NCBI GenBank assembly: GCA_019694655.1
Contig: JAIBBN010000001.1
Location: forward strand, 564,501 to 628,500
Direction of reading: 5' to 3'
Origin: Leptospirales bacterium
GTDB taxonomy: Bacteria; Spirochaetota; Leptospiria; Leptospirales; Leptonemataceae
Length of the DNA: 64,000 bases
Under the pieces are notes generated by a model. The model made no database searches, was not told the origin of the DNA, and was given only the letters and a program-made list of their open reading frames with translations. Positions 2,563-8,574 of this stretch are shown here, piece by piece (the first letter of the stretch is position 1; every line of letters starts with the position of its first letter). The translations under genes were made by a program, and so were the position numbers.

Positions 2563-3075
2563 ATGTCCATGGAATTGAGCTACGGCGGGCTCTCCGGTCT
2601 TTTCGACGATTTGCAAGAACAGGAGAGCGGCGAACAGTATCGTCAGTTCCTGACCTTCGATGCAGCCGGCGGCTACTACGCCGTCAACATCCTTGATACT
2701 TTTGAAATATTGAAGCCGACCCTGCTCACGCGCACGCCCAATGTCGAGGATGAGATGCTTGGCGTGGTCAACCTGCGCGGTAACATCATACCGATTGTGG
2801 ATTTGAGCCGCAAATTCCGCGGGGACTTTACGGAGCTGGAGAACGTAAGCCGCATTGTGGTGGTCAGCTTTCAAGGAAAGTACAGCGGCCTTCTGGTGGA
2901 TCGAGTACTCGAGGTTGTTCGCGTTGCAGAATCGGCCATTGAGGCCGGCGAAGTGCGCGGTTTCTCCAATGAGTACATTCAGAGCGTCGGGCGTTCCGGC
3001 GATCGCATCTTTCTCATTCTGAATCTTGAGCGTTTGTTGCAGTTTGGCGGCGCTATGCAGGAGCGCGAAGTCTGA
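2563..3075 (+). CDS. cheW: Chemotaxis adaptor CheW
   Basis: CheW couples chemoreceptors to the kinase CheA at the inner face of the membrane. The 170-residue protein carries one CheW domain from about residue 27: QFLTFDAAGGYYAVNI, then MLGVVNLRGNIIPIVDLSRKF, a classic CheW core, and a final ILNLERLL strand. The first 25 residues are a short acidic extension. The stop codon overlaps the start of cheA, so the two are translationally linked at the head of the che operon. Confidence 0.95.
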   Translation: MSMELSYGGLSGLFDDLQEQESGEQYRQFLTFDAAGGYYAVNILDTFEILKPTLLTRTPNVEDEMLGVVNLRGNIIPIVDLSRKFRGDFTELENVSRIVVVSFQGKYSGLLVDRVLEVVRVAESAIEAGEVRGFSNEYIQSVGRSGDRIFLILNLERLLQFGGAMQEREV

Positions 3076-6000
3076 TGGCCGACCAGAAGGATCGTTATCT
3101 CGAGATTTTCCTGGAAGAGGCCGGCGATCAGCTCGATCTGCTGAATCGCAGCTTGCTCGATCTGGAACGTTCCGGTCCGCAGCGCGAAATCATCGACGAA
3201 ATTTTTCGCAGCGCTCACACCTTGAAATCGGCGGCGGCCTTCATCGGCTACGACCATCTATCGGAACTGAATCATCGACTGGAAGACCTCTTCCAGCGCA
3301 TTCGCGATCAGAAGATTGCGATCAGCACGCCTATTGTGGACTTGATGTTCGAGGCGCTGGATCATATGCGCGCCTTTCTGGCGGCCGTATCGCGCGGCGA
3401 GTCGCCGGAAAACGATTTTGCCGAATTGCGCGAACGACTGCAACAAACGCTGCAGGAAGCGACGGGCGCGCCGGTCGTGGGCGGCCAGATCGCCAGTCTG
3501 ACCAGCTTGAATCCCGGCGCCAATGCAGGTCCGGCAAACGCTCCAGCGGCGGCCGCTGGCCTTGATTTTTTGAGCCTTGATGAGGCCGATGAGGAAGCGC
3601 TGGTTCAGCAGGCCGCCGGCCGTCACGTTTTTGATGGCATCGTTCGCATCGATCGCGACGCGGCGATCAAGAACATGCGCTATCTGCTTCTGCTGGAAAG
3701 CATCAAGCGCGAGGCGACGCTGTTTCGCTCCGAACCGGCGGCGGAAATGCTGGAGACGGACCAGGAAGTCGACCATCTTGCCTTTGTCGTCCACGGCGAC
3801 ATCACTCGCGATCGTCTGGTCAAGCTCTGCCAGATCGATATGGTGGAAGAGCTGCGCATCGCGGAACGCGGACCTGGCGCGGCCATTGGCCGTCGTGAAG
3901 GCGGCGATGCTCTGCACGCCGAGGCGCGTTTGCAGTCGCGCAATATCAAGGTCTCCGCAGAGAAGATCGACTACCTGATGAACAATGTGGGCGAGCTGGT
4001 GATCATCAACTCCGGCCTGCAAAAAATCTACGAGGATATGCAGAGCTCCCTGGGCGAATCGGGGCTGCTGGCGGAGCTGAAATCAAAGATCGATCAGGCC
4101 GAGCGAATTGCTCGCGACCTGCAGTCCGGCATCATGAAGACGCGCATGATTCCCGTCGGGCTTGTCTTCCATCGCTTTACGCGTCCGGTGCGCGATCTTT
4201 CCCACGAACTGGGCAAAGAGGTTGAGCTCTACTTCCATGGCGAAGACGTTGAGCTGGACAAGAATATCATCGATGCCCTTGGCGAACCGCTTCTGCATCT
4301 GCTGCGCAATGCGCTCGACCATGGCATTGAAACGCAGGCTGAACGCGTCAGCCGCGGCAAACCGGCGACAGCGCGCTTGACGCTCAACGCCTACCAGAGC
4401 GGCAACAATATCTTCATTGAGATTTCAGATGACGGCCGCGGACTCAACACCGAGGCGATTCGCCGTAAGGCGCAGGCTGGCGGACTCATACCCTCGAACA
4501 GCGATTTGAGCGCGGATCAAATCCACCAGCTGATCTTCGAGCCAGGCTTTTCAACAGCGGCGACCGTGACTGACCTTTCCGGTCGCGGCGTGGGAATGAA
4601 TGTGGTCAAGAAGATGACCGAGGATTTCAAAGGATCAATTCAGATCCAATCACAGGCGGGGCAGGGCGCCGCCTTCTTACTGAGCTTTCCGCTGACGCTG
4701 GCCATCGTCTCCGCCATCCTGGTGCGCATTGAGGAGGAAGAATACGCCTTCCCCCTGGCGGACGTAGTGGAAACGATACGCGTCAATCGCGACGAGGTGA
4801 CCAGCCTGCAGGGACGCGACATCATCAATCTGCGCGGCGATATCCTGCCGGTCTACCGCCTGAGTCGATTGCTGGGTTTGCACGACGGGGCCGAAGGCGC
4901 GGATTTTCCAGTGCTGATTGCGCTGCATGCCAATCGCAAGATTGGCTTCGTTGTCGATGGCTTGATTGGTAAGAAAGAGATTGTGATCAAATCCCTCGAG
5001 CAGAATTACCGCAGCGTGCCCGGACTGATCGGCGCCTGTCTGATGGGCGACGGACGGATTGTCATGGTGCTCGATGTCCAGGGTCTGCTGGAGATTGCCG
5101 CGCAGCAGAGCGGGGCGCACGCGGCGCTGCAAATGGCCCAATCCGAAAGCGGAGAGTATCTGAACCCGGCGCAACTTTACAATCTGCGCGTCGAGGAACT
5201 GCAGCGCCTGCAGCGGCAGATGGCGGAAGACTGGGAGACTGGCGAGGTCGAAGAATTGGCCGCCGTGGGCGCCAGCAGCGCTGTCGCCGCCATGGCGCCG
5301 GCCGGCGCCGCCAGAGCCAGCGTCAACGCTGGACCGCCGCCCGAGCTGAACGCTGCAACACCTGGCGGCTCTTTGCTGGCGGGACCAGAAGCCAGCGCAA
5401 GCAAACGACCATCCTCTTCGCTTTTTGAACAGGATATGCAGGCGGCGGCCGAAGAATTGGCCCGGACGCACTTTCCCGAAGTCGAACCCGCTGCTGTTGA
5501 AGCGTCCATGCCAGGCGGAGAACAGCAGCCTCCCGCGCCTGCACTCCCGGCGTCGTCGTCTCCCGATCGCCACGCGGATCGTGCGGCGCCGTTGCGCGAG
5601 CTTTCCGACGAAGACTATCAGAAGTTATACGGTTTGATCAATCGCGGCATGCTCAATGCCGGTCAGGTCCTGTCCCAGCTGCTTGGGGTTCGCGTCGATG
5701 TTTCTACGCCGGAAATCAAGACAATGGACTACGCCGATATCAGCCGCTATACGCCGGCCGGCAGCTTGCTGGCGGCGACAGTCGAAGCGGAGCAAGGCAT
5801 CGATGCCATCGTGCTCTTGGTTTTCGACGAGGCTACGGGATATCGGGCGGCCGGCGATCTGCTGGGCATTCCTCCGGAACAGTGGACGCGCGAAGCCATC
5901 GGCGCCGAGGATTTGCGTTCTGTGATTCAGGAGTTGATCAATATAGTTGGCGCCAGCATACTGAATGAACTGTCCAATCGTACTGGAATCACCATGACGC

Positions 6001-6194
6001 CAACAGTGCCCGACTTCTTTCAGGGAGCGCGCGACGGACTGATTCGCTGGCTGGACCAGAAGGAAGGGGACGCGCGCGGATTGAAAGTGCTCTATATCAC
6101 CGCCGATTTCTACCGTCAAGATCTGGAATTTCTGGGACGCTTGTTCCTGATTCCTTCAGCGCAGTCTCTGGCCCGCGTGGTCAATCGACTCTAA
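3075..6194 (+). CDS. cheA: Chemotaxis histidine kinase CheA fused to a C-terminal CheC-like phosphatase domain
   Basis: A 1,039-residue protein. An Hpt domain (about 1-105) has the phospho-accepting His48 in SAHTLKSAA. A P2-like region follows (about 165-270), then the P3 dimerisation helices (about 285-360), a GHKL ATPase (about 365-530; LRNALDHGIE, SDDGRGL, GRGVGMNVVK) and a CheW-like P5 domain (about 535-665). After an Ala/Pro linker, residues 845-1039 form a CheC/CheX-like domain. Its second half keeps the phosphatase signature S949-x3-E953-x2-N956-x22-P979; the matching first-half site has lost its Glu (Gly instead). Standard CheA lacks this domain. The protein could therefore both phosphorylate CheY and help dephosphorylate it. 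Confidence 0.95.
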   Translation: MADQKDRYLEIFLEEAGDQLDLLNRSLLDLERSGPQREIIDEIFRSAHTLKSAAAFIGYDHLSELNHRLEDLFQRIRDQKIAISTPIVDLMFEALDHMRAFLAAVSRGESPENDFAELRERLQQTLQEATGAPVVGGQIASLTSLNPGANAGPANAPAAAAGLDFLSLDEADEEALVQQAAGRHVFDGIVRIDRDAAIKNMRYLLLLESIKREATLFRSEPAAEMLETDQEVDHLAFVVHGDITRDRLVKLCQIDMVEELRIAERGPGAAIGRREGGDALHAEARLQSRNIKVSAEKIDYLMNNVGELVIINSGLQKIYEDMQSSLGESGLLAELKSKIDQAERIARDLQSGIMKTRMIPVGLVFHRFTRPVRDLSHELGKEVELYFHGEDVELDKNIIDALGEPLLHLLRNALDHGIETQAERVSRGKPATARLTLNAYQSGNNIFIEISDDGRGLNTEAIRRKAQAGGLIPSNSDLSADQIHQLIFEPGFSTAATVTDLSGRGVGMNVVKKMTEDFKGSIQIQSQAGQGAAFLLSFPLTLAIVSAILVRIEEEEYAFPLADVVETIRVNRDEVTSLQGRDIINLRGDILPVYRLSRLLGLHDGAEGADFPVLIALHANRKIGFVVDGLIGKKEIVIKSLEQNYRSVPGLIGACLMGDGRIVMVLDVQGLLEIAAQQSGAHAALQMAQSESGEYLNPAQLYNLRVEELQRLQRQMAEDWETGEVEELAAVGASSAVAAMAPAGAARASVNAGPPPELNAATPGGSLLAGPEASASKRPSSSLFEQDMQAAAEELARTHFPEVEPAAVEASMPGGEQQPPAPALPASSSPDRHADRAAPLRELSDEDYQKLYGLINRGMLNAGQVLSQLLGVRVDVSTPEIKTMDYADISRYTPAGSLLAATVEAEQGIDAIVLLVFDEATGYRAAGDLLGIPPEQWTREAIGAEDLRSVIQELINIVGASILNELSNRTGITMTPTVPDFFQGARDGLIRWLDQKEGDARGLKVLYITADFYRQDLEFLGRLFLIPSAQSLARVVNRL

Positions 6195-6216
6195 CGCTGC
6201 CGGACCGTTGCCATTC

Positions 6217-7242
6217 ATGTTTCGTATCCTGCTGGTAGACGATTCCCCGCTGGCCCGCCGCGCGGTGCGCGATACCCTGGAGGCGATCGAGGGGTTGAGC
6301 GTTGCCGCTGAAGCGACCGACGGTGAGCAAGCCCTGCAAGCGCTTGCCACGCAGCAATTTGACTTGATCATTCTGGATGTGGAGATGCCGCGTCTCGACG
6401 GCATTGGCGTGCTCAAGGAGATGCAAAAGCGCGGGCTCAAGACGCCGACGCTGATGCTGTCCTCGCTAACGCGCAGCGGAGCGATCACCACTTTTCGCGC
6501 CCTGGACCTCGGCGCGGCGGACTTTGTAACCAAACCCTCGCCGGACGCCGGCGTAAGCGTCGCCGACATGCAACTGGCGCTGCGCGAAAGGGTGAGCGCC
6601 TTTGCCGAAGCGGAACGGCTCAGCGCTGCGCCCGCCCCACAAGCGACGCCCCGCGCCTCCGGCGTGCGCTACGGCGCCTTGCTGATTGGCGCTTCAACGG
6701 GCGGACCAAAAGCGCTGCAAGACATGCTGCGCGAGATGCCGGCCGAATTTCCGGCGCCCATCCTGATCGTGCAGCACATGCCGCCGCTGTTTACCGCAGC
6801 CTTTGCCGAGCGACTCAACGAACTCTCGCCGCTTGAAGTGCGCGAGGCTTGCGACGGCGAAGCATTGCACCCTGGACTGGTTCTGATTGCGCCGGGCGAT
6901 CAGCACCTGCTGGTGGAGCGCAAAGGCGATCTGCTGCTGGCCAGGCTGGACAGCGGACCCGCCGTACGCTCGCATCGACCTTCCTTTGAACCGCTTCTGG
7001 AGTCGGGAATCAAAGTCTTTGGCGGAGAGCTGGCGGCCCTGATCATGACCGGGATGGGTCGGGACGGCGTCGATGGCTTGCTGCGGCTGCGCGCCGCCGG
7101 CGGATTGACGCTTGCGCAGGATGAGGCCTCCAGCGTAGTGTTTGGCATGAACCGCAGGGCGATCGAAGCCGGGGCTATCGATCAGGTCGTTCCACTGAAA
7201 AATATGGTTGCGGTCCTGTCCGCTTGCTTCTCATACCAATAG
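6217..7242 (+). CDS. cheB: Chemotaxis methylesterase/glutamine deamidase CheB
   Basis: CheB removes methyl groups from chemoreceptors after phosphorylation by CheA. Residues 1-120 form a receiver with acidic pair (LLVDDS) and phospho-acceptor Asp54 (IILDVEMPRLDG). The C-terminal esterase carries the catalytic set: Ser in LIGASTGGPKA, His in IVQHMPP and Asp in MTGMGRDGVDG. I chose ATG 6217 over an in-frame TTG three codons earlier because MFRILLVDD is the normal receiver start. It follows cheA by 22 bases. No cheR is present in the window. Confidence 0.95.
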   Translation: MFRILLVDDSPLARRAVRDTLEAIEGLSVAAEATDGEQALQALATQQFDLIILDVEMPRLDGIGVLKEMQKRGLKTPTLMLSSLTRSGAITTFRALDLGAADFVTKPSPDAGVSVADMQLALRERVSAFAEAERLSAAPAPQATPRASGVRYGALLIGASTGGPKALQDMLREMPAEFPAPILIVQHMPPLFTAAFAERLNELSPLEVREACDGEALHPGLVLIAPGDQHLLVERKGDLLLARLDSGPAVRSHRPSFEPLLESGIKVFGGELAALIMTGMGRDGVDGLLRLRAAGGLTLAQDEASSVVFGMNRRAIEAGAIDQVVPLKNMVAVLSACFSYQ

Positions 7243-7265
7243 CGGGTTCAATCTGGAGAGTATTT

Positions 7266-7625
7266 GTGGCACGTGTTCTGGTGGTAGATGACGCCAAATT
7301 TATGCGCACCCTGGTCAAGGATGCGCTCACCGCCGCCGGCCACGAGATTGTCGGCGAAGCGGAGAACGGCGTCCAGGCCGTGAAGCTATTCGGGGATCTG
7401 AAGCCGGACCTGGTGACCATGGACATCACCATGCGCGAAAAAGATGGACTGGAGGCCGCCGGGGAAATTCTGAAAAAGGACTCCACCGCTCGGATCATTA
7501 TGGTTACGGCTCTGGGGCAGGAAGATCTGCTGGCGCGCGCCATAAAGATGGGCGTAAAGGACTTCGTGGTGAAGCCCTTTCCGCCGGAGCGCCTGCAGCA
7601 GGCGGCGGCCAAGGCGCTTGGCTGA
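7266..7625 (+). CDS. cheY: Chemotaxis response regulator CheY
   Basis: A single-domain receiver of 119 residues that signals from CheA to the flagellar motor. It has the acidic pair in VLVVDDAKFMR, phospho-acceptor Asp53 in LVTMDITM, the Thr in VTAL and the Lys in FVVKPF. The GTG at 7266 is chosen because GGAGAG lies at 7255-7260 with good spacing and the protein then begins exactly at the receiver fold; an upstream in-frame extension would overlap cheB without reason. It closes the cheW-cheA-cheB-cheY operon. Confidence 0.95.
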   Translation: MARVLVVDDAKFMRTLVKDALTAAGHEIVGEAENGVQAVKLFGDLKPDLVTMDITMREKDGLEAAGEILKKDSTARIIMVTALGQEDLLARAIKMGVKDFVVKPFPPERLQQAAAKALG

Positions 7626-7677: not shown

Positions 7678-8574
7678 TTGTCTCCCGCTGATCCTACAGA
7701 TTCCTCTGAAGAGCTTCCGGGCCCTGCCGCAGGGGCTGGCGCAAGCGACAGTGCTGCAACCGTTGCTGGCGAGCAGCAGTCGTCTGGCGAAGACGCCGAA
7801 CGCATTCCTGAACCCCTCGATCAATTTCAGGTCAGCTGGACCGATCCAGAGGGCGAGCCGCATCACGGGCCGCTGTCCGTACTCTGGAAGTTGATCGAAT
7901 CCTACCGGATTGATATCTTCGAGGTATCGTTACTGCGCATTAGCGAAGACTTTCTGGAATTCCTGAGCCGCGCCAGCGAGTTGCAGATCGAACTTGCTTC
8001 GTCCTTTGCGGTGATGGCCTCGCAACTGCTCTTCTACAAGAGCCGCGCCTTGCTCCCTGATCCTGGTTTTGAGGATGCAGAGGAAGAGCCGCGTCTGCCG
8101 CCAGAACTGGTGCAGCAATTGCTGGAGTACCGGCGCTTTCAGCTGGCGGCCGATCGCCTCCGCGAAATGGACAATCTGGCGGCGGGCATGCTGACGCGTC
8201 CGCCCTCGCCGGCAGCGACGGCCGCTGCGGAGGGCAACGAGTGGCTGGAGGTCAGTATCAATGACCTGATCCAGGCCTACTCCAATATGTTGCGACGGCT
8301 GCAGGAAGGGGCCGCCGAAGAACGGCGCTTTGAAATTCAACTGGAAGAGGTCTCCGTTGAAGATCGTATCGAAGCGCTGCGCGAACTGTTCAAGACGGCC
8401 CAGGAATTGAGTTTTGACGAGCTTTTCGAAAGCGTAGAACGCATGAATCGCGCTGAAATTATCGCCACTTTTCTGGCGCTTCTGGAACTGACGCGGATGC
8501 GCGAGATTGTCATCCGCCAGCGGGTGAACTTCGGCGAGATCCGTATTTTCAAGCGCAGCGCTCTGGTGCATTGA
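7678..8574 (+). CDS. scpA: Segregation and condensation protein A (ScpA)
   Basis: ScpA is the kleisin subunit of the SMC-ScpA-ScpB chromosome condensin. The 298-residue protein has an unusually long acidic/Ala-rich extension of about 45 residues, then the kleisin core: GPLSVLWKLIESYRIDIFEV, MASQLLFYKSRALLPDP and a C-terminal winged helix ending in RQRVNFGEIRIF. The start is probably the TTG at 7678, with AGAGG just upstream. The TTG and the extension make the exact N-terminus uncertain. scpB follows 139 bases downstream. Confidence 0.9.
   Translation: MSPADPTDSSEELPGPAAGAGASDSAATVAGEQQSSGEDAERIPEPLDQFQVSWTDPEGEPHHGPLSVLWKLIESYRIDIFEVSLLRISEDFLEFLSRASELQIELASSFAVMASQLLFYKSRALLPDPGFEDAEEEPRLPPELVQQLLEYRRFQLAADRLREMDNLAAGMLTRPPSPAATAAAEGNEWLEVSINDLIQAYSNMLRRLQEGAAEERRFEIQLEEVSVEDRIEALRELFKTAQELSFDELFESVERMNRAEIIATFLALLELTRMREIVIRQRVNFGEIRIFKRSALVH

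Follow-up and report, generated by a model that had tools for sequence, protein, structure and literature searches.

The fusion of CheC/CheX domains to F1 CheAs was described for the class Leptospirae by Berry, Andrianova and Zhulin (2023), who suggested that the fused proteins act both as kinase and as phosphatase (PMC10782961). Their genome set consisted of the RefSeq genomes of GTDB v95, and the fusion was given one short paragraph that dealt with the Leptospirae only (PMC10782961). The CheA described here has the same architecture, the same dual function is proposed for it, and it probably comes from the same class, its named relatives being Leptospiraceae or Leptospirales and its operon being shared. 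It exemplifies an architecture that was already in print, as was the interpretation, and the finding as such is already known. Our additions are modest: compared with that study, we extend the distribution beyond the class, to at least 11 further families, follow the conservation site by site down to an invariant catalytic site, place the fused proteins in a tree and describe a pattern of cheX replacement.

Several other systems resemble the fused protein in part. The CheC of T. maritima (1xkr; 2f9z with CheD) is alike over the whole domain, in its fold (TM 0.84) and in the ExxN motif of the second helix. That protein is free-standing and has both ExxN motifs intact, however, whereas our domain is fused to CheA and has lost the Glu of its first site. 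CheX (T. maritima 1xko, Borrelia burgdorferi 3hzh), a member of the CheC clan and the CheY-P phosphatase of those spirochaetes whose cheX adjoins cheA, carries one ExxN per chain, as our domain does, but is the weaker match in both sequence and fold. FliY (T. maritima 4hyn) is a CheY-P phosphatase with a CheC-like fold whose activity is localised by fusion to another domain; there the partner is the FliN switch domain at the motor, whereas here it is the kinase, presumably at the receptor array. Enterobacterial CheZ, recruited to the array by CheA-short, follows the same logic of placing a CheY-P phosphatase beside the kinase, although its fold is unrelated and its recruitment non-covalent; no CheZ was found in the genome studied here. 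Rhodobacter sphaeroides CheA3, reportedly a bifunctional kinase-phosphatase (Porter 2008), is likewise a kinase of chemotaxis whose chain can also dephosphorylate a CheY, but its phosphatase part is not known to be CheC-like.

The window analysed here is a stretch of 64,000 nt of a Leptospirales bacterium (GCA_019694655.1, contig JAIBBN010000001.1, positions 564,501-628,500 of the forward strand). The cheA operon and the domains of its kinase are laid out as follows, in window coordinates:

2563..3075, + strand: cheW (Pfam CheW, 111 bits), the upstream operon partner of cheA
3075..6194, + strand: cheA, an ORF encoding a fused CheA-CheC of 1039 aa, Pfam order Hpt-P2-H-kinase_dim-HATPase_c-CheW-CheC
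3096..3371, + strand: P1/Hpt domain of CheA, residues 8-99 (Pfam Hpt, 59 bits), with phospho-acceptor H48
3642..3863, + strand: P2 CheY-binding domain of CheA, residues 190-263 (Pfam P2, 25.7 bits, cut-off 23)
3939..5093, + strand: P3-P4-P5 core of CheA (Pfam), comprising dimerisation (289-356), ATPase (405-541) and CheW-like (547-673) domains
5232..5594, + strand: disordered linker of CheA, residues 720-840 (pLDDT below 50 throughout in the full-length model)
5607..6191, + strand: CheC domain of CheA, residues 845-1039 (Pfam, NCBIfam, PDB profile match, model with Foldseek)
5631..5711, + strand: degenerate CheC site 1, with G853 (Glu lost), N856 and P879 (alignment)
5919..6011, + strand: intact CheC site 2, S949-x3-E953-x2-N956-x22-P979 (DNA and alignment)
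6208..7242, + strand: cheB (Pfam Response_reg and CheB_methylest), the downstream partner of cheA
7224..7625, + strand: cheY (Pfam Response_reg, 97 bits; closest NCBIfam model CheY), the presumed substrate of kinase and phosphatase
7678..8574, + strand: a gene which we take to be scpA-like, marking the conserved end of the operon

The Hpt, P2, H-kinase_dim, HATPase_c and CheW domains all score above their Pfam cut-offs and are followed by CheC on one chain. In an alignment with 14 full-length relatives the kinase residues, including H48 and the ATP-binding motifs, are invariant. The gene order cheW-cheA(CheC)-cheB-cheY-scpA was found at 38 fused loci, and the CheY adjoining the fused cheA is 74-87% identical in nearly all loci of the main lineage.

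The original prediction placed a CheC-like domain at residues 845-1039 of CheA, behind a disordered linker, and both elements were borne out. Pfam CheC (PF04509) matches residues 948-981 with 30.3 bits against a cut-off of 22, whereas Pfam CheX (PF13690) reaches 20.5 bits, under its cut-off of 27. The whole of the NCBIfam model CheC_Thtogales aligns with residues 843-1037 (41 bits, E=1.7e-10), and a profile built from 19 relatives matches end to end both the T. maritima CheC structure 1xkr (E=2.3e-15) and the Haloarcula CheC structure 3qta (E=2.2e-15). AlphaFold models the domain with confidence (pLDDT 88.1, pTM 0.85), and the model superposes on CheC crystal structures: with Foldseek these are the best matches among solved structures (3qta, E=4.5e-17, TM 0.82; 1xkr, with the TM given above), followed by FliY and FliM, and CheX is more distant at a TM of about 0.5. 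By fold and by sequence the domain is a CheC rather than a CheX. Shuffle controls exclude a chance origin of the match: a profile of standalone spirochaete CheC gives the real domain 48.3 bits and the shuffled copies that were scored at most 8.3 bits, and E-x2-N-x22-P arises in 1.2% of domain shuffles, or 0.06% when the Ser is included. In the full-length model the overall pTM is 0.36 and residues 720-840 are disordered, so the domain is predicted to be tethered to the kinase without a fixed place.

The catalytic signature that had been proposed for the second half of the domain, with its E-x2-N and a Pro 23 residues on as in CheC, is exact when read off the DNA (S949 at 5919, E953 at 5931, N956 at 5940 and P979 at 6009). 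The loss of Glu from the paired site in the first half also stands: site 1 reads G853-x2-N856-x22-P879, Asn and Pro being retained, and the two intact ExxN sites that are typical, but not universal, for CheC are not both present in this domain. No fused domain departs from E953, N956 or P979 (70/70 for each), whereas site 1 has Glu in 6/70, Asn in 45/70 and Pro in 47/70. An invariant site 2 beside a decaying site 1 is the pattern expected for one catalytic site under selection. Against a phosphatase reading, S949 is not universal, being conserved in 57 of the 70 domains, and with a single active site in place of two the activity may be low. The helix of site 1 (residues 845-879, window 5607-5711), with the pattern G-M-x-N-A-G-x-VLSQL-x-G, is nearly invariant in the Leptospirales despite the loss of Glu, and this suggests a retained non-catalytic surface.

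In the mechanism that we propose, domains P1-P5 of CheA would phosphorylate CheY at the receptor array, and the C-terminal CheC domain, on its flexible linker of about 120 residues, would bind CheY-P via the single intact ExxN helix and dephosphorylate it, and kinase and phosphatase would thereby be kept in one complex at the array. We infer here the catalytic activity, the use of this operon's CheY as substrate and the localisation at the array. The probability that this flagellar (F1-like) operon encodes such a bifunctional CheA, a CheY kinase with a tethered CheY-P phosphatase at the array, is about three in four.

Among the indirect signs that the fused domain may share a pathway with CheX, the strongest is a pattern of gene replacement. 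Other spirochaetes, as had been stated from the outset, have cheX as a gene of its own: in 10 of the 13 genomes with a non-fused CheA it follows the kinase core on the same strand at a distance of 0.2-3.2 kb. The slot downstream of cheA is occupied in the fused operons by cheB and cheY, not by cheX, so the domain appears to take the place of a known phosphatase gene. Where fused genomes from outside the class were checked, standalone CheX genes and cheA were on different contigs. In the window's genome itself, three CheX proteins with ExxN motifs are encoded by genes of their own, at C1:8.6 kb, C18:51 kb and C21:35 kb. These speak against a simple phosphatase story, as they could do the bulk of the dephosphorylation, and the fused domain is therefore not the sole candidate phosphatase.

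Two CheX loci are of separate interest. At L056:7822-9433 (G000 contig C1, about 7.8-9.4 kb) a response regulator-CheX-ODP cluster is found beside a PAS/Hpt/HATPase kinase; the ODP protein belongs to the oxygen-binding diiron family PF19583 (177 bits), and the cluster is reminiscent of the pairing of CheX with ODP in Treponema denticola. At L058:7385-9897 (G000 contig C21) a standalone CheX adjoins a DUF5939/adenylate cyclase gene, and a role outside chemotaxis is possible for this CheX.

The main rival to a tethered phosphatase is a dock for CheD. By analogy with the free CheC of B. subtilis, in which phosphatase activity is minor and CheD binding is the main role (PMC3513319), the fused CheC could be mainly a CheY-P-gated docking site that keeps CheD near the receptors or apart from them according to the level of CheY-P, its phosphatase activity being secondary. 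CheD is indeed present in 43 of the 48 genomes of the class. In the CheC of B. subtilis the residue in contact with CheD is D149. Two confident CheD genes, and one below cut-off, occur in the window's genome; one of the confident ones has the sequence GGASMF, aligning with the T. maritima CheD of the CheC-CheD crystal, and species that have CheC are reported to carry an M-F pair in their CheD (PMC3513319). However, CheD lies outside the fused operon, one copy sharing its contig with another CheA that is not fused and lying no more than about 3 kb from it; CheD proteins with the M-F pair also occur where the CheC domain is highly divergent; and pure docking would need no E, N and P that are invariant in every fused domain. 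We consider docking as the main role unlikely.

Still less probable is a module that only binds CheY-P, being catalytically weak and acting as an extra P2-like tether or as a phosphate buffer. P2 offers a precedent for a tethered CheY-binding domain in CheA. In most members the Glu-less site 1 still has its Asn and Pro, and its helix motif VLSQLLG ranks with the best conserved stretches of the domain in the Leptospirales; this would fit a non-catalytic binding surface. Mere binding would, however, tolerate change at the E and N of site 2, as it does at site 1, whereas these residues are invariant, and the replacement of the cheX gene in the operon also argues against it.

The CheA-CheC fusion is widespread. 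A survey of CheA across the Leptospirales, suggested with the original prediction, found a CheC match in 19 of the 22 genomes of the window's own family and in 8/8 of its sister family, nearly all within a CheA-sized frame; of the three genomes that lacked a match, two were without any CheA hit. The named relatives of the window's CheA, found with patterns derived from a 10-row alignment, are Leptospiraceae or Leptospirales assemblies; these patterns are Leptospirales-specific and uninformative on other phyla. In other families of the class the domain at the end of a long CheA is more divergent, and in some sister families it is very divergent, falling below the Pfam threshold in L069 and L073. 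A separate cheC gene beside cheA in the sister families f3-f6, an idea prompted by weak CheX hits directly 3' of cheA in G042, G030 and G033, was dropped, as a profile of the Leptospirales domain finds the domain within the long CheA frame.

A search of the Spirochaetota with the fused profile, followed by inspection of the loci, showed the fusion beyond the class in at least 11 families (f8, f12, f23, f26, f27, f28, f31, f35, f39, f41 and f46), and the notion of a curiosity confined to the Leptospirales was rejected. Of four such proteins scanned with Pfam CheC, three (L103, L107 and L125) scored above the cut-off and L121 just under it. Some members vary the theme: in the fused CheAs at L061:3113-7165 and L080:4062-8147 (1351 and 1362 aa) P5 and the CheC-like domain are separated by a linker of about 470 aa. 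In the window's family, a second, more divergent fused CheA occurs beside the main one at L065:245-3238 (G008) and L082:5303-8323 (G009), with a cheY-cheY layout, so that paralogous fused systems exist in one cell. An artefactual fusion, in which a stop was missed or a frameshift joined cheA to a neighbouring cheC, is refuted: nearly all fused genomes lack an in-frame stop, and dozens of independently assembled genomes have single open frames of about 870-1360 aa. The one relative with a split frame (L129) has an assembly gap, translated as X, inside a gene in which both domain parts are present.

In a tree of 101 CheA kinase cores all 71 fused proteins fall in one clade (support 100/98; root not fixed), the only non-fused member of which is the gap-broken L129. 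One origin is therefore likely, and within the Spirochaetota, the phylum that the search covered, a single early fusion event is the simplest reading of the sequences. This rests mainly on the core tree; the tree of CheC domains is compatible with it and recovers the Leptospirales and the groups from other classes, but has long branches and separates fused from standalone CheC at moderate support only (86/84).

Taking this together, we lean, if only slightly, towards an ancient subfamily of CheA proteins, of single origin and active both as kinase and as CheY-P phosphatase, across much of the Spirochaetota, in which the fused CheC would have replaced the cheX of the operon and CheY would be controlled by a fixed 1:1 complex at the array, the ratio of the two activities being immune to expression noise. 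If the domain is active, kinase and phosphatase are fixed at 1:1 and in the same place in these spirochaetes, which bears on how chemotaxis withstands expression noise and on where, array or motor, CheY-P has to be destroyed; the protein would then amount to CheZ recruitment in a natural, covalent form. The Leptospirales include motility-dependent pathogens, and a fused enzyme departs from the usual models of spirochaete chemotaxis, Borrelia and Treponema, with their free CheX. The wider distribution and the replacement of cheX provide a clean comparative set for testing.

Finally, in spirochaetes without a fused CheA, standalone CheC with two sites was observed at L127:5011-5978 and L128:4660-5735, in frames of 228 and 334 aa that lie beside or overlap a receiver domain; these are possibly receiver-CheC fusions.
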